Assembly (NCBI GenBank): GCA_000499405.2
Contig: HG738137.1
Span: 4,898,001 to 4,962,000, forward strand
Source: Onchocerca volvulus
Lineage: Eukaryota > Nematoda > Chromadorea > Rhabditida > Onchocercidae
DNA: 64,000 nucleotides
Direction of reading: 5' to 3'
Position 1 is the first letter of the stretch. Every line of letters begins with the position of its first letter. Of this stretch, positions 20,691 through 55,900 are shown one piece after another. The notes below the pieces were generated by a model. That model made no database searches. It was not told the origin of the DNA and saw nothing but the letters and a program-made list of their open reading frames with translations. A program made the translations under genes and the position numbers.

Positions 20691-20732
20691 CAATAATGCT
20701 GTTTGCGGAAAGTTGATTTTATTTATGTTGGT

Positions 20733-21033
20733 GTGACAGAGACGAGTCCTTTGGTAGAAAAGATTTATTGATTGATGGAAGAATAACTTTTGTAATAAAC
20801 AATATCAGAGAATATCCAGGTAAACTGATCACTGGATTATTCTTTACTTTGTTGCCAGCTCATGGCACCAACAAATTATCGGAAAAATTGAATTATTGAT
20901 GTGATAGAGATGAATTCTTCTGCAGAAAGTTTTGTTTATAGACGGAAGAGTGATTCTTCCTTCACAGCACAAACAACTATTTGAGAATATCCGATCAAAT
21001 TGATCACGAGATTATTTTTTCCGTTGTTGTTCC
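20733..21033. repeat. Two diverged tandem copies of a ~168-bp unit
   Basis: Copies at 20733-20865 and 20901-21033. Shared blocks: GTGAYAGAGAYGA, GCAGAAAGT/GTAGAAAAG, GAGAATATCC, AACTGATCAC and GATTATT...TTTTGTTG. The first copy ends in CCAGCTCATGGCACCAACAA, reminiscent of a primer-binding site, but no retroelement coding region is present. Confidence 0.55.
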
Positions 21034-21128
21034 TAGAGAATCTTTGATAAACGATCTGCTGCTATCGCTGTGTCGTTGCTGAGTCATTGTAGAGAAACTG
21101 ATTCTGCTCCAAAATCCGAATTTTTTAA

Positions 21129-21343
21129 TCTTAAAATCGTAAGGATGGGTCTTTTTCGATATTCAATAAAAAATGAGTTATTCGGTTGCTTAGATTACCA
21201 TATAAAGAGGTATATGGTAATTTTTTATAAATATAAAAAAATACACAGTTATCGAATTTAACCATGAGTTGATGGTTTGGTGCCAGCACAGAATTCCTCA
21301 AATGGAAGTAATTATTCACAGCGTTCGAATATGATAAAGTCAA
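21129..21343 (+). repeat. Dispersed repeat, partner of 51505-51721
   Basis: Runs from CTTAAAATCGTAAGGATGGG to CGAATATGATAAAGTC and aligns over its whole ~215 bp, same orientation, with 51505-51721 in ZC3H18 intron 4. Conserved blocks: TTTTTCGATATTCAATAAAA, AAATATAAAAAAATACRCAG and AATTCCTCAAATG. It runs directly into a second repeat family at 21346-21400. Confidence 0.75.
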
Positions 21344-21429
21344 AAAATTTAGTCCGCTCTCTTATTTTTAGTTGTCACGGACATGACATTAGAAAATGAT
21401 GTAAGGCTGAAGAAGACTCCGTCTAAAGG

Positions 21430-22090
21430 CATTGGGTTTTTTCGATCGAGGATGTGAGCGAAAGCCGAAAAATGTAATTAGTTGTATATAGATAAGAATG
21501 TCTAAAGGTCAAGCAGCGGGGAGATGTTGACGAAGGCAAAGGATGCAATCATAATGAACAAGAAATGTGAAAGATCAAATAGCGCCATGACAATTATTGT
21601 GAACGAGAAGTACTAAAGGTCTAGTGGCGCGAAATAGTTTCAAGGAAATAATAAATATGTTTGCCGCCAAAACGCTCCGATTCACAGATAGGCAAAGTGA
21701 GTCGACTAATCATGAAGCGATATGTTGGATCAGATAAGGGGGGAATCTCAGAAGAATTTAAAAGGTCAGGATTTTGGAGCAAGGGGATAATTAAGGTTCG
21801 GAGTTCAGTTCAATACAGTTCAGTAGCAGCAGATGGATGCAATTCGACAATAGCAGCAATTTCGAGGATAATTTGTCTGGTAGGAGCCACAGTTAAGCGA
21901 CAAAAGCAAAAATTCAGTTGGAGCAACCGCAGTGGTGGAGCGAAGAACGACTGTTGCAAAAGGCTAGGTACAATATCATAAACATTTGGATGGCTGTTCG
22001 TACCCTTTGATTATTTGAAGCCTTTGCTGACCTTGCCGCGTCACAATAGCAAGAAGAAACAATATCCAATCTAACCGAACGATAAACCAG
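21430..22090 (+). repeat. Dispersed repeat, partner of 2000-2480
   Basis: See the entry at 2000. The 106-codon frame at 21661-21981 lies inside and has no domain. This block together with 20733-21400 separates the two kinase units, so the spacer between duplicates is largely made of repeats. Confidence 0.45.
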
Positions 22091-22109
22091 ATTACACAAA
22101 GCTGCAGTA

Positions 22110-34800: not shown

Positions 34801-37800
34801 AATTTTAAATAAGTCTCTCTAGAAGAGATGCTTTATACGATGTCATTTGTCCAACCAAACTCAACAACAAGTCTTTCTAATCATTCCTCCACTCTTCTCC
34901 TATACTATCATTTCCATTCCACGACGAATTACTTTGATGAATTTTATTTTATCATTTTATATCCCCAAAATAAATCGCTTGAAGCAATAAAAAAGCCATT
35001 AAAAAATTTTGCTCTACAGAAAATTAATTTAAAGTTTTGAAAAAATTCACGAGCGGAAATTAAAACAGTATTATTTTAATTTCCATACTAAAAGTCTCTT
35101 TTTTAATCTTAGAGCTTTAAAATGAATACTTTTACAAATCTTTTCCAAAATCTCGTGAGCCACTATCGACCATCATATGAAGGAATAATCCTTTAAATAC
35201 ATGATCGAAGAAATTATGTGATGTGTGCATAACTTGTATAAAACTCTTACATTCGGAACCTTTCAATTTGATCACTTTCTGAATTTTCATTCATTGGGGT
35301 TTTGGAGAAATTTTAGACAAGAAATGCAATTCAAGCCAACATTTATTTTTCAGAAGCAAAATGAGTGAGTGAATATTTAGCTCAGTAGGAATTAATTGTG
35401 TCATAAAACTATAAAATAGGATCAGAAGGATTTTATAAATCATTGAAAATGAAAAAGCATTTAGGAATTCTCAACAATTTTGAGAAATATATCAATTTCG
35501 ATTACATCAATTTCCAAAATATCAATTTCGATTTTTAAGCCTATTTTTAACCAATTTGAGGACTATCATTATGAAATGTGCTATGGTGCATGAAAATTTT
35601 ATTGAATTCCAAAATTTTGCTAATGAATATATGTTTTTTTATGAATAAAATTCTGAGGAACTAAAGGAAAGCAGTGTGTTTTCATTTTCTTTCGTTAAAT
35701 TATTAGCCAAAAATTTTACTTGTACAAAGACTATTCTTAGCTTTTCGTTTAGCGCATGAATGAGTATATATTACAGTGAAATTTCCACTCAAATTCATGT
35801 CTTCTATGAAAATTTTAGAGGATGGAAATTAAATTGATTAGAATCGCTCCACTGATTGTTCGCGTGTCATCGAAGAACAAAATGATTCGTTTCAGAAAAG
35901 GTATTTAATAAAAACATACCAAACTTTTCTACAAAATTCATAACAGGAAGAAATATTGTTAAAACCGACAGACCAGTGTAATTGCGAAGGAAAGTTTAGT
36001 TTGAGGAGTTTCTTCAAAATCGTTCCTTGCAAGTCGATTGAAATAGTTTTTATACAGTTCAAATAAACAAAAAGAAAGTACTTAGAATTATCTAACTGAA
36101 TATACCAATAATGATAAGAAGAACAAATTTCTACAGCGATTCTGGGAAAATTTTGTTCAGCGACTGATCATTGATTATTGTTGGAAGTTTTCAAAGCAAA
36201 AATTGAATGAAATGGTGGAGAAAAAAGAAAAAATTTTGGAGAATTAATGTTGGTGGAAGAACGGTTGAAGCGAATGCTTGATAAAAGTGACCGTATGATT
36301 ATGAATTAACAGGAAAATTAAATGGTAATGGGATCAGGCATATAGCTAAAAGAAAAAAAAATGAAAATGACATCGACTTCATCTTAATTAACTTTTCATA
36401 TGATTCACAAAATATGAGGCCTTTTCAAATTGCAAATCAAAAAAACAAACCGATGGGAATAAGGCCTTGTTTAGTACATAAATAAAAATGAAAATGTTCG
36501 TTGTAGTTCTTCACATAACGTTGCAAGTTTTTCATCGATTTGTTTTGAAATTTTGATACAACGTTGCATTCGAACAGGCGTCCGTTTTTATGCAGATATA
36601 CCTACTTTTTTTACCTTCACACCTGGGACAGGTAAAAGTAAGTGAGTGAATTGAATTTTCTGACCATCCCTACTTCTTATATTGTTCATTTTTACACAAC
36701 GTCTCAAGTTCTTTACCGATTGATTTAAAATTTCAATGCAACGTTGCATTCGAATAGCACGTATTTCTGTATAAATAAGGCGCGTGTTTAAGAACTTTCG
36801 GATTAATTGGAGCCAGCCAAGCTAAGCGTAGCCGGATCTAGCTAAGTGAAAATATATGGACTTTAATCAAAGTCATGCTGATTTTATCAATAGCTTCAGG
36901 AATATGAATTCAATAGACAACGAAATTGGTCATGTGAATAGTTGAAGATATTGAACAGTCAATGAGAAGAGCAGGAAGGTATCAGAAAAGTGAAATATAT
37001 ATTTCTTCGCGCTTTATAACGAAAAACAAAAGCTAAAAGAGAAAAACAAGACTCTCGAGGAAAAATGTCCCTGTTAATTATATATATTGCCATATAAAGC
37101 AATAAATTAATAACAGTGGATCAATTGGTATATCTGAATATGAATTCATTAGCGATATGTGAATGGCGATTTCTCTCATATTGTCGTTTTACAATGACGT
37201 ATCAGAGCTTCTCATAATTTGTCCATAAGCATTAGTTATATTGGCGAATATATCAGTAGTAATAATAATAAGCAATTGAATCAAACAGTTAGATTTTTGA
37301 TTTATCATAACAATTATTTTGCTTCCAACTGTTGTGAAATCATTTGCCAAATAATTTCGCAATAGTTGGAAGTAATTAGTTGATAAAGAATAGATCTTTT
37401 AATTTGAAACTGAAATGAATTAATTTTAGTATTTTAACATTAATTTTTCTCATTTTCTTCGGCAAAAACTTCAGATTTCAAATCATTCCGATTTGAGCAA
37501 AATTGCTTTTTAACTTGAAAGATCAAAGCAGACTCTTATTTGCAAAAATTTCAGGAATATTATGTCTTTAGTTCGTGAAGTCACTTTGACAGATACATTT
37601 GTTGGAATCTAGAAGCGTAATGTTGTTTGTGATAGTGTAGATAATATAGGAAATTAATGAGATTGTTAAGTCAATAAGTAAAAGAAAGAGATGGCTTAAA
37701 GAAAACAAGCTTAGTAATGAATAGAAAAAATCAAATCTGAAGATGTATGGATAGTAATATTAGCATAGAAGAGCTTTGAACCGAGTTTCTACGTTTTTAT

Positions 37801-39924: not shown

Positions 39925-41454
39925 GAGCGTAAATCATAGTAATCCTTAAAAAGGAATGTTGGTTTATTGTAAGTTAAAATATTTAAGAATTAAATAATTT
40001 AACCCTAAATTTAGGGTGTCAATCTGACTTGTAACAGTATGATTTAAATTTTTTAAATTTATTCTTATATCGGGTGTTGCTGTACAGATTTTCTTAAATT
40101 CTTCATCTGATAGTATTTTAAGCAAGATTGTGAATTAATAGGGATAGATTCATTATCTAGTGAGTAAGTGAGTAAGTAAGGAAGAGTGGGATAAATACAT
40201 AAAATTAGGGTACTGAGAGGTGAACCAAATTATAAGCGAAGAAATGAATTTCTAATAGGAAGCCAACAAATTTATTTGAAAACTAGCTGGAGCTTAAAAG
40301 TTTTTAAACACGCGCCTATTCGAATGTAACGTTGTTTCGAAATTTCAAATCAACCGATGAAGAACTTGATATGTTGTGTGGAAATGAACAATGCAGAAAG
40401 TAGGAATAGTCAAAAAATTTAGTCCATCCACTTACTTTTACATGTCATAGGCATGACAGGTAAAAAAAAAAAGGTATATCTATTGGGAACATGTACTTAT
40501 TTGAATGCAATGTTGTCTCAAAATCTCAAATCAATCGATGAAGAACTTGAAACGTTGTGTGGCAAATAACAACGAATATTTACATTTTTATTTGTATAGA
40601 TATAGTTAATAACACTGTAAAGATAGCGAAGAGATGAATGTATTCATACGATAGGGAAAAGAGTGAGAATAATGACCTCGAAGAGTGTACTTCTTTAAAC
40701 ATTATATCAATGCCAGGATTTGTTACAAACAACTAGCGAACCATCCACCGATGACAAGTCTCATTCTGAATTCTTTTGCACTGTATAACGGAAGATTTCT
40801 TAAATGGAATATTACTGAGAAGGAAGAAAGGAAAAAGACTGATAGCTAATTGAAAATATCCAATTATACAGTAATTTCCCATTCTTATTATCATTCTGTC
40901 GAAATTATTTTACTTCGTTATTATGGGAAAATAATATGTGCATAGATTATCGCTTGATATTATATTTCAAATCTCTATGAGCCAAGATGGTAATAGAGTT
41001 ACAATTGAATATAAGAAATCACTAAAGACAGATTCTATCTATTCTATGTAGTGGTAATTATAAAGTCATAAGATAAATCAATTATACAGAATGGACATAA
41101 AATTTTTTTAAGGAAAAAAAAAATAGAATCTGACAAGGGAGATACTAATATCTACAATATTTCCGGTACTATTTTCTTCCATGTCCATGACAATAGAGAA
41201 AAAAAAAAACTTATCTCAAATGTAAATATTTGAGCGCCCAAAATTTATTTATAAATAAAATTATAAAAGAATAGATATCTGTCAAGACAAATCAATTATA
41301 TAGACTGACTCGCATTCTCCGGCACTAGAAAAAAGCCTTCAAAAAAAAAAAAAAAAAATCCGAAATTTTTACAGAAACATATGAGAAAAGGAATGTAATT
41401 GCAGTTATGCAGAAATAATACCTATCAAAGATTACCAAATTAAGGCTCTACCTT
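39925..41454. other. Intergenic DNA with dispersed repeat
   Basis: Contains the repeat at 40300-40576, a GAGTAAGTGAGTAAGTAAG simple repeat near 40160 and an A-rich run at 41341-41358. No gene seen. Confidence 0.5.
40300..40576 (+). repeat. ~280-bp dispersed repeat, inverted partner of 36512-36798
   Basis: Starts at GTTTTTAAACACGCGCC and has two half-units each ending in GATGAAGAACTTGA and a GTTGTGTGG block. The core contains CATGTCATAGGCATGACAGG, an imperfect palindrome. The stretch TCAAAAAATTTAGTCC plus the core also occurs at 21346-21400, giving a third partial member (GTCACGGACATGACA core). Confidence 0.7.
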
Positions 41455-41650
41455 CAATATAAAAAAGATTGATAAGCCATCAACAAAGCAGCAAAAGTAA
41501 ACCAAAAAGACAGAGCATTAACACGAGGAAAAGCTATCTTAGGAGAGCCCAACTTTAAAGGTAGCATCCAATTATCAAAACAGATATAACCAAAAAAAGA
41601 AAAAAAAATCATTAAAATACTATTCATAATAAGCACAGAATTATACTCCT
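41455..41650 (-). pseudogene. cox1: Nuclear copy of mitochondrial cox1 (NUMT), diverged
   Basis: On the minus strand: YNSVL, SILMIFF, then NWMLPLKLGSPKIAFPR and VNALSFWFTFAALLM with AYQSF. These follow, in order, a nematode cytochrome oxidase I segment around the conserved NWMLPL and PR-x-N-x-LSFW motifs. The expected MPxxIGGFG stretch before NWMLPL is rearranged and the frame ends right after the YQSF block. T-rich composition fits nematode mitochondrial DNA. Non-functional nuclear insertion; more degraded than the cytochrome b copy at 54.5 kb. Confidence 0.85.
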
Positions 41651-43732
41651 GTCTACAAAAAAAAAAAATTCATTTCCAAGAATGAGATTACGAACAAAGA
41701 CGAAAAGAACAGAGGTAGGCGATTAGGCTAGTAAATCAATTGAGTATTCCTTTCGCACGGAATCATTGTTACTGATTATTTAATCGAGTATTCTTTCTAC
41801 ACGGAATTAATCAGTAGAACAATAATCAATAGAATATTTCTTAATTAGTTAATCAACTGAATATTCCTTCAGCACGAGATTACTTGGAAGAACGATGTAT
41901 CACAATAATATTAAAGCACTGCAAATAGGTGGATAGGAAAATACATGAACTAATAAACATTGATGACAGTATATACTTTGGAATGCTCATCAGGAATGTT
42001 CCTTTGATGCTCCTCTTGAGTAGAGCATCCCAAGAGTAGCATTTCAAACTAAGGATGACAATATTACCATTTATTCAAAACATTCTTGATCTAATCTTAA
42101 TTATTGATCTAAATAAGATAAATAACTCCACTATTCCAATTTAGTCCTAAAATTTGACTTCCTTCAATTAGTTCTTTTAATTCAATTTTTTCTAAACAAG
42201 TTACACCAGATGAAGCTAGTACTGATACTTCAAAAAGTTATGCAGCCTCTATCTTAATGTCTGCAAGAATGGATTACGAAATTCTCGTTCGTTACGAATT
42301 TCATTCCCATCAGAATGAGAAAATCACGAGACCAAAAAGTTATAAATATATTCATAATTCACTAATATGCGAAATAGTCTCATTTGACAGAGAACTGTCC
42401 GTTTACGGATTAGTCAATTCATGAATTTTTGCTTAAAGCGAATTAAAGACCAGTAGTTCTAAATTTTTTTCAGCTGCCTAATCACTTGTTGCATATCTTC
42501 ATAGTATAACAAAAAATAAAATTTTTTTTGCACATTTCACATGTTCATTCCAAAGATTTGAGTCATTAAAGCATTTCATTTAGGGTAAAAATTAGCAAAT
42601 TTAAGCACTTATAATAAAAACAGACATTTAGTTCTATAATGTAAGCATATAATCATAAAATATGTGACTGCTAATGTAAATATGTAAACAATTAAAAATT
42701 TAGCACCAAGTAACGAAACTTAAACCTAATATACATGATATCGCATTTGTGATTGTTGATACAAGTTGCAATTGTTTCATTTTTAGAAACTTTGAATATC
42801 AATTGAAATGTTATTAAATAAAATTGCGTGAGTGCTTTTTAAACTCCCTGATAACTCAAAAATCTATTTATTCGTCACATTAATAACTACCTAATTTTTA
42901 CATTCAAAAGAAAACAGTAATGAATAATTTCGTTTAAATGCAAGTGAAAATACGATAGGAGACGCTTTTCAAAGAAGTATAAATTCCATAGATCATCATT
43001 TTTGAAGAATCAATTTTGAGTATATGAAAACCAGATAAAATTACTCCTAACAAATAAACTAAAATTAAATCCCTTAACAATAAATACGAAAATGACATTT
43101 ATAGGTCCATTTGTAACCTTTTCACAAAATAATGATTTACGGCACAAAAAAAAAGAGGAAACTGGCAACAATTTATGATAGTTTCGCATTGATTTTATTC
43201 TTTTAAAATTCAAATCAATGGAAAGTGAGCAATTCTGAATAGAAACAATTAACGAAACTAATAAAAAACATGATAACTTTAAAAATTTAAGCTTCAAATT
43301 TTTATTTAACATTTTCAACTTTTTTAACATAAATGCTCAAATTCAAACAGCAAATGAATGAATTCAATGAAAACAAAGAAAAAATTAATTAATGATAAAT
43401 ATAATTAAAACCAATTCTCTTTTATTCCTCAATAAAGTAATTGCGAATAAACTGTTTACAAATATACATATTTCTTTTTAGTGAGATGGAAATATAGAAG
43501 TGGCATTTTTGAAGTGATCAATATCGATTACTACAGCTAGGAAACAGCGAAAGAATAATTAAGTTTGAAAAAATCTTCCTTGATTCCAAGCAAATATTTC
43601 AAGTAAATTAACTTGCAGCAGAATTAGAAATACAAAATGAACTAATTCGATCCATGTAGTGAAAACTTATATTTTAAACTTTCGGCAAATAATGAATAAT
43701 GATAACCGTCATGATTAGTTGAAAATGAAAAG
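41651..43732. other. Intergenic / 3' flank of UXS1
   Basis: Holds a degenerate repeat cluster at 41734-41880 and a possible decayed coding fragment at 42113-42260 on the minus strand. The 106-codon minus frame at 43010-43330 has no domain. No gene supported. Confidence 0.45.
41734..41880 (+). repeat. Degenerate tandem motif cluster
   Basis: TTGAGTATTCCTTTCGCACGG, TCGAGTATTCTTTCTACACGG, a partial AATAGAATATTTCTT and AACTGAATATTCCTTCAGCAC occur within 150 bp with uneven spacing, each preceded by TTAATC or AATCAA-like bases. Confidence 0.6.
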
Positions 43733-45100
43733 TTACAAATTCTTTCGCACTGCAAAGAAGATTTTCGATTTATCCTTTAATTCATTTTTTCCATCATCTT
43801 CTTTGAGCATCATTCGATCATACTCCAATTCTTCCCGAAAATAATTGATTGTCTTGATTAAGCCATCACGTACCGGAACTATAGGCTTCCAATTTAATTT
43901 TTCATAAGCTCGTGAGATATCAGGCTTTCGTTGTTGTGGATCATCTTGTTGTTCAGATTCATGAACAATACTCGAATTACTACCTACTAAATCACGAATT
44001 AACTCTGCAAATTCATTAATTGTTCTCTCTTCAGGATTTCCAATATTAACTGGATCTGTATAATTACTTTCCATCAGTCTAATTAATCCTGTCACCAAAT
44101 CGTCAACGTATTGAAATGAGCGAGTCTGTTTGCCGCTACCGTAAATGGTTATCGGGTCACCACGTAAGGCTTGCAGGATGAAATTGCTTACAACACGACC
44201 ATCGTTCATGTGCATTCGAGGTCCAAATGTATTGAATATCCGAGCAATTCGGATGTCCACTTTCTCTTGCACATGATAGGCAACCATCAACGTCTCTGCG
44301 ACCCGTTTTCCTTCATCATAGCATGATCGTGGTCCTACTGTATTTACATATCCCCAGTAGTTTTCCGGTTGTGGATGTACTTCTGGATTACCATAAATTT
44401 CAGATGTTGAGGCTAACAGTATACGAGTTTTCAATCTCCTAGCTAGACCTAGCATGTTTATAGTACCGAGAGTGTTCGTTTTGATGGTTTTCACAGGATT
44501 ATACATGTAATGTGTTGGCGATGCGGGGGAAGCAAGGTGATAAATTTCATCAACTTCAATAAGATATGAATTAACCACATCATGATGGACAAGTTCGAAG
44601 TTAGGATGTCCAATCCAATGTTCCACATTCCGTTTTCGACCGGTAAAGTAATTGTCCAGTGCGACGACCTCATGTCCCTCAAGCATCAGACGATCTACTA
44701 AATGAGAGCCGACAAAACCGGCACCACCAGTGACTAGAATCCGTTTCCGATTTGCTTCGTTTTGGTATTTTACACTGACATGACTTTCTTCGCGCGACTT
44801 TTGTAGCGTCTTAATCCTTTGCGAATTCTTTTCCAGACGAGCGAATTCCTGCTGCAGCGAATGCATTTGCATTTTAAGCTTCTCGAAGGGTGAATTATAT
44901 AAAACCAACCTCTGATTTATTTCATTTAACGGAAAAGCTTTCCATGCGGAGACATTAGGGAATGGTTGGTGTCGCAACAGATTCCATACATTAGACGGGA
45001 AATGTTGGTTACAATATGTAAACAGAATGATTAGCAGTGAACAACACAGAAGCGCTAATTTCTGGAAGCGCCAGCTGAATGACGGCAAGTTGAAACCCAT
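43733..45100 (-). CDS. UXS1: UDP-glucuronate decarboxylase (UDP-xylose synthase), single exon
   Basis: One uninterrupted 455-codon frame. Residues 16-29 form a membrane segment after a short cytosolic start, giving the type II Golgi topology usual for UXS1; residues 60-110 look like a stem with coiled-coil character. The extended SDR domain starts at about 120 with [12 protein letters not shown] (NAD-binding G-x-x-G-x-x-G 125-131), then [20 protein letters not shown], catalytic YDEGK with Tyr261 and Lys265, and [10 protein letters not shown]. Known: converts UDP-glucuronate to UDP-xylose, the donor that starts proteoglycan glycosaminoglycan linkers; the C. elegans homologue is sqv-1. All expected motifs are intact. 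The absence of introns is unusual beside its neighbours. The ATG at 45100 is preferred because it includes the membrane anchor. Confidence 0.95.
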
Positions 45101-46956
45101 CGTAAGGTTGGCTTCAGGAGGATTTCAGGATGACCTGCCCAAACTAATTGTCACCAAAGGAGACAAAAAGACAGATACTAACAACACCATCCAACACAAT
45201 TCAGACGCCATACACTAATCACTTTTTAATCTTTCAACGAGAGAAAGGAGGAATATGAAATTAGAGAGAAGCAGAGAAGAGTGGGTTAATGTAGAAATAG
45301 TATGGAAGGATATGAGAGCTGTAGTTGCGAGTGGATAAATAAATGCTTCCTGAAAAGAGAGTGGGGATGTCAAAGGTCATGGTCTTTTATGGCAAGTGTC
45401 GCCGTGTTTAAACAACAACAGAAGTATGCAATGATTCGATTGAATATCCTATCAGCCTAAGCATATATCATTATCAGTTGATAAAGGATGAAATAAAGGC
45501 GGGAGACGGGATTTCTTTATTATCAAACTTTCCGGAGAAAGAGCAAGTAGGTGGCGATTCATCTCATCTTTTCAAATTACAACATCTTGTCTTTATTGGC
45601 ATTCGCCTTCTCTTTTCTTCCTATGCCCTTTGCCCTCATAATTTTTTCGGAAAACAATTGCTTTCCCGCTTTCGCTCTTCCAGCAAAACTTCGCTCACTC
45701 TTTTTGCCCGAATGTTCTTTTATCATTATTGATCAGCGATGAATTGATGGAACTTAACATTCTAGTCACATTTATGAATCTTTTCAAGTCGAGCTTGAGC
45801 ATACGCTATTTTTAGTCGTTTGAAAATAACATGATCTGCTAAAATAACAGTCAACATAAACACTTGGCACAGTTCATCAAGCAGTGACATGCAAAGATGA
45901 GAGCTGTCAATTTGTCGATCCCAATGTCCCAGCATTTATTGTCCATGAAATCGAACTTCTTCTGGACTAATATCTTTGATTTGACCCTTTTTTTTTACTA
46001 TATATTCTGTTGGTAAAGCACCCTTGCTATTGGCTTTTTTGCAGTAGAATAAAGTTTATGCCAGAAGTGTTGTTGGCCGGAAAGTTCTAATGAAAACGAA
46101 AATTTTATTAGGCTTAGGCTTATCATTAGGACAATTCAGTATTTTTCGGCATCAATTTTAAAAAAATACCACATGTCAAACGGTCTCTTCCATTAAAGGA
46201 ATAAGGGTTGTTAGTAGAGACCGGAATTTAGCTTCAAAAATAGAAATCGAAATTTAACTTGGAAAACTTTGGAAAATATGAAAATAATATGCTGATCAAT
46301 AAGTATTTTTGGATTCAAAATCGATGTTTCGAATGTTTTACTGAAATAGCTTTAAATATAGTTTTGTTTTCATTACAGTATAAATTAAATTTTAGATAGT
46401 GTTTATTTTGCATTAATAATCTTAATGATGCGATCGATTATGACAAGAAGGCCGTTCATTATTTTCCCGAAGTAAAATTTTTTAACTGTTAGAATTTGAT
46501 TTTAAAGTCTGCAAATATTTGACTTATTTAGCAGTCACTTCTTTCATGCTGTTGATAACAATGAAAAATTCGCACTTGAGGCTGGTATGTTCCCATTTCA
46601 TTTTGAAGAACATCGATGAGTGTTTGGGATTACGAATAAATTATTAATGGACATCAGAAGGAATGATAGAAAGAACTGAACGATATGAGTCAACAGTCGA
46701 AAATAATAGAATCTCTTTTGTGTGAAGGGTTTCTATATTTGCTTGAAAAATGGGTATCAGTGAATTTCAATCTGAGCTTACTATGCGAAAAAATTATTAA
46801 ACCATCGAACGAAACAAAAAATGAATTAGCCATTTCACTTGCTACAGTATTAGGCTTATTGCAAGTTTCTATTTATCAATAATACCTTAAAGAGCTATCT
46901 CTGTTTTCGTTCCAGTACTTTGAATTAGCAGTTGCATCTACATCTCCTCGTGAAGG

Positions 46957-52900: not shown

Positions 52901-55900
52901 ATTCAGAATATGACTATGGACGCGATGAACCTTCCCGGTTGCCTCATAAAGGTTAATTTTTATATTACTTCGACTTCATCAAAGTGCTGAAATTGCGATC
53001 AGTAAACTTAAAATATTTAGATCTAGGACCGCAAGTTCTGTACCCGAATGGAAGACCAATTTCTCGACGACATGGACCTCCTCCGAGACGTGAAATGTTA
53101 GTTTCGAAACTTTGGATTTTCAGGATAAACATTTTTACCTCAGAGAGATTTTAATTGAATATCATTATATTTAATTGCATAGAGCTAACAGTAACATTAC
53201 CACTTATATATTAACTCATTTTGAATGTTCCTTTCAGCTCACGGCGCGATTCTCCACTTCCTAGTTCTCACTCGTCACTTTCGCGAACTCCACGAGATTC
53301 CCGGTCACCTAGTTTACATCATTCGCTATCGCCTCCAGGTAAAAGGCGTGGATCACCATTAATAGCTAATAAACGAGAAGTGAATAGAAAACGAAGCGGT
53401 GTTGTTGCTGTTGGTGGTCTCCTTTCAGGTTAATTTCTTTTACAAGAAATAATTGTTTAGTGTGTATAATTATCTTTATTCTGAATTTTTCATGCATGAA
53501 ATTATACAAATTTTGCAAATTTCTTTGAAGAATGTTAGGTGTAGCACAACTGTAACGAAATCGAAATGAACACAATTCAAGCATAAAAAATAAGTAAACG
53601 CCATGATGTGATTTAATTCACCTAAAAATCCCCTCGGATTCTAGCTGGTGATCAAATCCACGATCCGTGGGAGAGATCACATAAAAAAGGGCGAAGCAAA
53701 GACAGAGAATTGATTTCCTTAACACTTGGAGCAGAACTCCGAAAAACTCGCAGAACGAATGACAACAAGAAGCAAATACATCGTCAGGATACTGCTAGTT
53801 CGGCAAGCAGTACTTCGAGAAGGTTTATTGAACCTTTGCGTTTTATCAAAATTTACGAAGAGTTTCATTTTTTGCTTTTAACATAAAGTTTTATAGAAAT
53901 GAACTAATATATTTCTAGCATTCTCTCTACTGTTTTTTATTTTAAAAATTTGTGTAAAAGCTAACTTTTGTTACATTTTAAGGTGATTTTCTTTTTTTTT
54001 TTTTTTTTGGAATATTTTTTTTTAAACGAAATCTTGAGCTCTTTTGAGTCTAGTTCTCTTGGTTTTAGAAGCGCAAGTATAGCCTCATCAATAACTTCAC
54101 GTTCTCGATCACATTCACGAGCATCCTCAGGAAGTCGTCATCAGTCGACATTCCGTCTCTCGTTGGCATCTGCTGTTGCTTCCAGAAATCTAATTGATGA
54201 TGATGGATCTTTGAGAGCAACAGATCTTTCATCCTTTCGTATTCCAAAAAAGAAGAGGTTTTATCCAAATTTTTATAATTTAATTTTAGTTTCATATCGG
54301 ATTAGAAAAGGTTATAACTTGTAATATTGCGATTCATTTTACGATTATATTAAGTAAAATAAAGTCGAGTTGTTGTTGGAAATTGAGTTTTAAAAGAGTC
54401 GTATATTAATACTAGCTGGACCTTGTCACGCTCCGCGTGGCCGATCCAGCTAATCTGTAGGAGTCGGCCAAGGGTTTAATTTATGGTAGGTATCGTCTTA
54501 TTGATGTGTGGTTGAGTGGTATTTTTATTTATTTTTTATTAATAGGTATCGCTTTTACTGGTTATGTTTTGATTTGAGGTCAAATGAGTTATTGGGCGGC
54601 AGTAGTTATTACTAGCTTAATGACTTCTGTTCCTTATTTGGGTAAGTATTTAGTTTGATGGATTTGGGGGAGTTTTAGTGTTTGTGAGAACACTCTGAAG
54701 TTTTTTTATTCTGTTCATTTTATTTTACCTTGGTTTATTTTACCTTGGTCTTTGATAGTTTTAGTTGTTTTTCATTTGTTTTTTTTGCATTCTATAGGTT
54801 TGTTGCCTTTCTTCTCGAAATGATGGAAGCATTACATCCATTACTTTGTCGTAATTCTTCAGCAAAAGTAAAAGTTTTTCATCGTAAACGCCAGATTTAT
54901 AGCACTCTGTAGCACTTCTAAATTCGTATTCAAAATTAAATAAATCAAGAAATTTACATAACAGTGAATTCATATGGTGGCCATAACTTTCGTGGGTGCC
55001 AAATGGGTCAGGTATCATCGTTAATGGCTTGTTTAAATGCTCTTTTAGCTTCATGTAAAAAAATATTAACCGATAAATTATATTATCTTCATTTTTTTTT
55101 CACTTGTTAAACGATTAATTGATCAATTCAAAACAATCTATCGGAAATTATTGCCATACGAAGATTTGTCACTTTTGTGAAATTTTCTACTCAGATTTAT
55201 GGTTTTTTCAAATTCGCAAAAAATTTATTTAGCGGGCCGATAAATTTTCTTTACTGGTTAAATTATTATTAGTAGTTAATGAGACTAAAATCATATAAAA
55301 TTAAATGAACATTACATAAACTGTCTGTGAATTTCGCAAATCTTTTCAAATTTGTGAAAATTTAAAGGTTGTAAATTTTAGCACTCTTTGTGTTTTCTTT
55401 TTCATCTAAGTAATTCAGTAAGTATTTTATGGCACAGCCGTTACCATTAAAGAATTTTAACACTGCTTGTATTGCAAGAAAACTGATAATTATTAATTAA
55501 CTAATTAGTCGATCATCTATTTTTCTGACGTAACATGCTTATTATTTTCGATTATGAGATTTATAAAAATTTTGTTCGAAAGTAAAATAAAGTCGAGTTG
55601 GTATTGGAAATTGAACTTTAAAAGAGTCGTATATTAATATAAAATGAATAGTATGATCAAACATAATCTATTCTTTTGCAGATCCTCTCCGACAGCGACA
55701 TTGCATCGCTCTAGTACAGTCGCTGTTCGTGGCTATGGGCATTCATTTGAGCGTTCGAGCAATCAAAATAAGCGGTACACATCTTCAATTTCTCTCAAAA
55801 GGTTGACTTTTGATTATTCAGTAAAATTTAAATTTATATTATTACAATCTTAAGTCATCTATAATGGTTTCTTATTCATTAACTTGTTATTTACTGCTTC

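Follow-up and report, generated by a model that had tools for sequence, protein, structure and literature searches.

How did mitochondrial DNA and DNA of the endosymbiont Wolbachia come to lie side by side in one intron of an Onchocerca volvulus nuclear gene? We have analyzed a 64-kb stretch of DNA (the window), which corresponds to positions 4,898,001-4,962,000 of a 28.3-Mb contig of the O. volvulus assembly (94.68 Mb, 115 contigs). A nuclear insert of 1,168 bp occupies window positions 54412-55579, flanked on each side by a 60-bp copy of intron sequence. Four pieces follow one another in it: first the 58-bp tip of a Helitron-type transposon, then cytochrome b mtDNA (322 bp), Wolbachia lysK (261 bp) and finally 527 bp of AT-rich DNA, here called U. 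A sequence-only reading of the window had described a composite mitochondrial and Wolbachia insert. Both of these pieces are real and lie in one place, but they sum to 583 bp, half of the insert, the other half being the transposon tip and U. It is close to certain that the locus is, in one form or another, a mosaic of captured DNA. The insert would now be without function, and none is expected.

The putative host intron (54258..55681, plus strand), whose splice sites were read from the sequence (GT at 54258, AG at 55680-55681), has 1,424 bp and would measure 196 bp once the insert and the duplicate are taken away. The host gene displays a single CCCH-type motif (51297) together with Arg/Ser-rich frames, which we take to fit a putative ZC3H18-like gene. 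Elsewhere in the window, the minus strand of 43733-45124 carries an intronless open frame of 463 amino acids, presumably resembling UDP-glucuronate decarboxylase.

The cytochrome b fragment (54470..54791, plus strand, 322 bp) was compared with a 13,560-bp contig of the same assembly (C115), taken as the mitochondrial genome because it matches this piece and many nuclear stretches. When a 15-nt in-frame tandem duplication not found in C115 (54719..54748, plus strand) was excluded, the fragment was identical to C115, from C115 base 2592, at 294 of the 307 aligned sites. As the sequence-only reading had it, the fragment lies on the plus strand and is open in a mitochondrial code, that of invertebrates. 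This mtDNA-derived stretch inside nuclear flanks of the 28.3-Mb contig is a numt. The 13 differences from C115 are all transitions, and 12 of them are synonymous in the mitochondrial code, an outcome (12 or more synonymous) with a probability of ~7e-5 if all 13 were neutral nuclear transitions. Most of them must therefore have accumulated on the mtDNA side since the transfer, and the nuclear copy has changed little. The window contains a second, older numt at 41455-41666, which is 77% identical to C115 394-174.

The class I lysyl-tRNA synthetase (lysK) fragment (54792..55052, minus strand, 261 bp, with the last 3 bases uncertain) was identical at 259 of 261 positions to wOo, the Wolbachia of Onchocerca ochengi. 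It was the sole match when the whole insert was searched against the wOo record, and its frame has no stop, so the proposed undamaged minus-strand lysK fragment is borne out. As a Wolbachia-derived nuclear stretch, it is a nuwt. The first 239 bases from 54792 are free of mismatches, whereas both mismatches (55031 and 55050) fall within the last 22 bases, the one at 55050 possibly lying past the true edge of the piece. The proposal was to be refuted by a lysK piece that matched nuclear and not Rickettsiales sequence; instead, identity was 99% to wOo vs. at most 89% to other nuclear lysK copies. With wOv and wOo being 99.51% identical (~4,400 SNPs), as given in PMC5310847, about one difference in the nuwt would be expected from symbiont divergence alone. 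Among the 26 matches (20 loci) of a 6.2-kb wOo stretch (L041) in the genome, the present nuwt is the closest (99%); a 33-bp match reached 97% and the next longer ones 92%. Together with the little nuclear decay in the captured DNA, this agreed with the earlier view of a fairly young insert. A nuwt from the same lysK stretch, at C5:14835001-14835439 (L008), is interrupted by ~250 bp of unrelated DNA.

The mtDNA stops at ...GCATT (54791) and the Wolbachia DNA starts at CTATAGG (54792), with no base shared and none in between. Two cytoplasmic genomes are therefore directly adjacent at 54791|54792, as in a mosaic cytoplasmic, numin-like insert. The other joins share one base (A) between tip and numt, 0-2 between nuwt and U, and ~2 between U and the right flank. 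A shared joint of ~9 bases at 54799-54807, and with it microhomology joining, had been proposed from the letters alone. Reading the junction ruled this out, since the wOo match is unbroken from 54792 and the mtDNA match ends at 54791, the simplest join being blunt. The several shared bases of microhomology-mediated end joining are absent from these joins, and the inner ones are end joining without notable microhomology. Their base-to-base joining indicates that mtDNA and endosymbiont DNA were loose at one repair site simultaneously, be it in a single event or in a second step.

The rightmost piece, U (55053..55579, 527 bp), represents 45% of the insert. It had no match in the C115 mtDNA, in the wOo record or in the Helitron family library, and was accordingly rejected as mtDNA, Wolbachia or Helitron-family DNA. 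Considered as a repeat, U yielded a single paralogue (71% identity, C2:138103-138266), found for 55440-55581 and thus for its last 140 bp only. We regard U as probably of nuclear origin.

The left edge of the insert (54412..54469, plus strand) has its terminus facing outward, next to the left flanking repeat, and its inner end meets the numt. It matches a dispersed family, with at least 40 matches, including the present locus, among 54 candidates. The start lay at most 2 bases from the A preceding CTAG in 23 of the 39 other tip matches, and 3-10 bases further out, in AT-rich flank, in the remaining 16, so the family terminus is placed with an uncertainty of a few bases. In the 19 other copies that were fetched, homology between sisters extended inward for at least ~110 bp in 18, and for more than 1 kb in many; in L014 it stopped at ~64 bp, making this a tip-only copy like the one studied here. 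The Helitron_like_N domain (PF14214), with 150 scored matches in the genome, was found 1.6-2.0 kb inward and in the same direction in three of the 19 copies (L010, L022 and L023), and opposite-strand matches occurred 0.7 kb inward in L025 and 2.2 kb inward in L014. Its presence inside longer copies supported that the family is Helitron-type. Canonical Helitrons end in 5' TC and 3' CTRR and insert between A and T. The terminus of the tip reads CTAG and not the canonical 5' TC, hence we have typed the family no further than Helitron-type; the unoccupied target site reads A|T at the insert edge. Comparison with the family library revealed no Helitron body to the right of the nuwt. Matches to this library are found in the window at 20717-22096, 36517-36835 and 40283-40558, the last stretch opening with the tip-like CTAGCTGGA at 40283.

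The two flanking direct repeats, X (54352..54411) and X' (55580..55639), are identical at 56 of 60 positions and both adjoin the insert exactly. They had been described as 59-bp, 93% identical repeats derived from a long target duplication; the direct repeats were confirmed, with a length of 60 bp. No third copy was found in the 94.7-Mb assembly, and with two copies only the repeat was rejected as a dispersed family. The flank-to-flank direct-repeat score was 48 at this locus, and none of 42 other blocks (26 numt and 16 nuwt) exceeded 29; the shuffles, a set run for those 42 blocks that excludes the present locus, scored at most 14. The test left out L120 (same place as L103), L121 and L124 (near contig ends), and L132, L139/L148 and L145 (multi-part, or no block recovered). 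Long flanking direct repeats were also present at two of the 26 other numt blocks, both of them old numts: L114, where the repeats match at 29/29 and the numt is preceded by 51 bp of other DNA, and L110, where they match at 30/35 and it is followed by 35 bp of other DNA. At L102 and L107, lower scores (14) were examined and left uncounted, that of L102 being a TA run. Such repeats were absent from the remaining 24 numt blocks and from all 16 other nuwt blocks; none of these 16 scored above its own shuffles. A 60-bp direct repeat of the target, exact at both insert edges, is the footprint of insertion at a staggered break, and we infer that the duplication arose by the filling of such a break.

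The age of the repeats is harder to reconcile with that of the insert. Their divergence per copy (4/120) compares with ~3-5 nuclear-lineage changes in 568 positions of the captured DNA, namely one replacement in the numt, perhaps one change hidden among the synonymous ones and at most two in the nuwt. Fisher's test gave p values of 0.020, 0.035 and 0.054 for 3, 4 and 5 changes, respectively, and of 0.08 with the nuwt alone (2/261). The contrast already drawn by the sequence-only reading, of a young insert between older-looking repeats with four mismatches, thus persists with modest significance (p ~0.02-0.05). It hints, but does not prove, that X and X' either differed from the outset, through error-prone filling or mutagenic repair copying, or stem from an older event, in a history of two steps.

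This genome is rich in both numts and nuwts. We have fetched all 20 nuwt loci of the 6.2-kb wOo stretch with flanks of ~0.3-1.5 kb, L145 being counted among them though it had no wOo match at the script threshold. A direct join to mtDNA was found at one of the 20, the present locus; at L141, a 33-bp mtDNA-like match 163 bp from the nuwt was judged weak and left uncounted. Two of the 20 touch the Helitron family, this locus and L136. In the latter, a nuwt of 141 bp (347-487; C5:1053046-1053186), 92% identical to wOo, is embedded in a Helitron body that flanks it on either side, with at most a few bases lost. Taken alone, L136 is unsurprising, since Helitron sequence is common (~1 kb of the 64-kb window matches the family library). 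Helitron sequence lies 127 bp from the nuwt at L146 and ~650 bp from it at L004. We have also compared 28 other numt loci, which are the best of 427 candidates (39 scored) and no random sample. Strings of separate mtDNA pieces occur at no fewer than four of them (L108, L109, L125 and L130; L116, whose own numt was not recovered by the script, was left out of this count), and the joining of loose fragments thus recurs in this genome. The young numt of L130 (1501-2250; C2:19252558 region) has two mtDNA pieces, 94% and 97% identical, in opposite orientation and with ~5 bp of overlap. At L111, L117 and L129, Helitron sequence lies at least 150 bp from the numt. L122 was considered as a second tip-numt join; its short Helitron fragment looks like the inner hairpin region and lies ~10 bp from the numt end, and we have kept it as a lead only.

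The explanation that we somewhat prefer to its competitors is that of a scar left by end-joining repair of a staggered intronic break, in which loose DNA was captured in one event. A double-strand break with ends staggered by ~60 nt would have opened the small intron; non-homologous end joining would have plugged it with a loose 58-nt Helitron tip, mtDNA, a Wolbachia fragment and U; and filling of the staggered ends would then have duplicated the 60-bp target. The pieces, their order, the inner joins (blunt or with 1 bp shared) and the exact flanking duplication are read directly from the DNA, to which this account would add a single event, an end-joining pathway and an origin for U. It is supported by the exactness of the duplication (48 vs. 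at most 29), by joins with 0-2 shared bases, by the strings of mtDNA pieces at other numt loci and by the two old numts, L114 and L110, that likewise have long flanking direct repeats. Against it, the other 24 numt and 16 nuwt blocks have no such repeats and, for a simple filling with scrap, it would be a coincidence that the filler starts at a transposon terminus beside the duplicated target. Our preference is a restrained one because the repeats are more diverged than the captured DNA, which counts against a single event.

That same divergence is what recommends the main competitor, a two-step history to which we assign a lower, though appreciable, likelihood. Here, an older insertion of the tip (or of a longer Helitron) and U would have duplicated X, and a much younger inner break would have captured the joined pieces of mtDNA and Wolbachia DNA. 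The one paralogue found for U is old (71%), as such a history would have it. However, the second break must have fallen exactly between tip and U, or have removed the DNA in between, and the Helitron body is absent from the right of the nuwt.

A failed Helitron insertion could have been the cause of the break, a refinement compatible with both the single-event repair and the two-step history, although we consider it rather unlikely. The transposon end would have become attached to the target at an A-T site; after ~58 nt the strand would have broken, and end joining would have completed the site with cytoplasmic DNA. Breaks of this kind might then admit mitochondrial and Wolbachia DNA to Onchocerca chromosomes, and the scar would be a frozen intermediate. 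The insert edge does coincide with the family terminus, the empty site reads A|T, the target expected of Helitrons, and the copy at L014 is also tip-only. Nevertheless, duplications of 60 bp are not known from Helitrons, the terminus is not base-exact (16 of the 39 other tip matches start 3-10 bases further out) and, among the 19 other nuwt loci, L136 alone touches the family, in the body and not in the tip. A paragraph of PMC12693587 associates regional helitron density with NUWTs in Onchocerca, and the transposon tip at our insert edge fits this association; it also names O. ochengi and O. lupi among the species lacking a repeat association, which gives the claim some internal tension and counts against the failed-insertion idea. 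If true, such a mechanism would account for the connection, reported as specific to Onchocerca, of Wolbachia inserts with Helitron density.

It is very improbable that the mosaic is the cargo of a mobile Helitron that captured gene fragments and inserted here. Helitrons do pick up fragments, as described in PMC6544945, and a Helitron tip forms one insert edge. Yet no further copy of the array was found in the assembly, its right edge matches no other family copy in the library, and the 60-bp duplication would be left unexplained. Least probable of all is a chimera in which nuclear DNA was fused with DNA from live mitochondria and live Wolbachia during assembly or in the library. The Wolbachia piece is indeed nearly identical to a live symbiont, but the numt differs from the assembly's mtDNA at 13 of 307 sites and by the extra 15-nt duplication, and diverged, exact-edged flanking repeats are no chimera product.

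Whether it formed in one repair event, as we prefer, or in two, the scar records how cytoplasmic DNA can enter the nucleus. Its most interesting part is the transposon tip at the edge, which was absent from the sequence-only reading. This tip turns a regional correlation into a testable question, namely whether numt and nuwt edges lie at Helitron termini beyond chance. The mtDNA-endosymbiont join connects two routes of gene transfer that are generally tallied separately, and screens keeping only sequences whose best match is bacterial, such as that described in PMC5310847, could split or miss such joins. A full-text literature search, with subscription journals largely outside it, found no case in an animal of an insert in which mtDNA is joined to the DNA of an endosymbiont.

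The locus resembles several known systems and differs from each of them. With Helitron-type (rolling-circle) transposons it shares the 58-bp edge, the terminal part of a family that carries Helitron_like_N domains in some copies, but the tip stands alone, without body or second end. Hundreds of nuwts have been reported in Onchocerca (PMC5310847 and PMC12693587), and the present one is likewise a short, non-functional nuclear Wolbachia fragment; it differs in being joined directly to mtDNA and in resembling the live symbiont more than do any of the 19 other loci matched by the wOo stretch. The new introns of Daphnia described in PMC4202315 also show that insertion at a staggered break leaves direct repeats, although theirs have 4-12 bp and are shared with the adjacent exon, whereas here 60 bp were duplicated and an existing intron was enlarged. 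A further likeness is with numins, the mitochondrial-plastid inserts of plants, in which, according to PMC6215612, two cytoplasmic genomes lie end to end with blunt or short-microhomology inner joins, mosaics accounting for up to 10% of organelle insertions. The present insert is not a numin in the strict sense (mitochondrial plus plastid), its second donor being a bacterial endosymbiont, Wolbachia, in an animal, and it has in addition a transposon tip and long flanking repeats.
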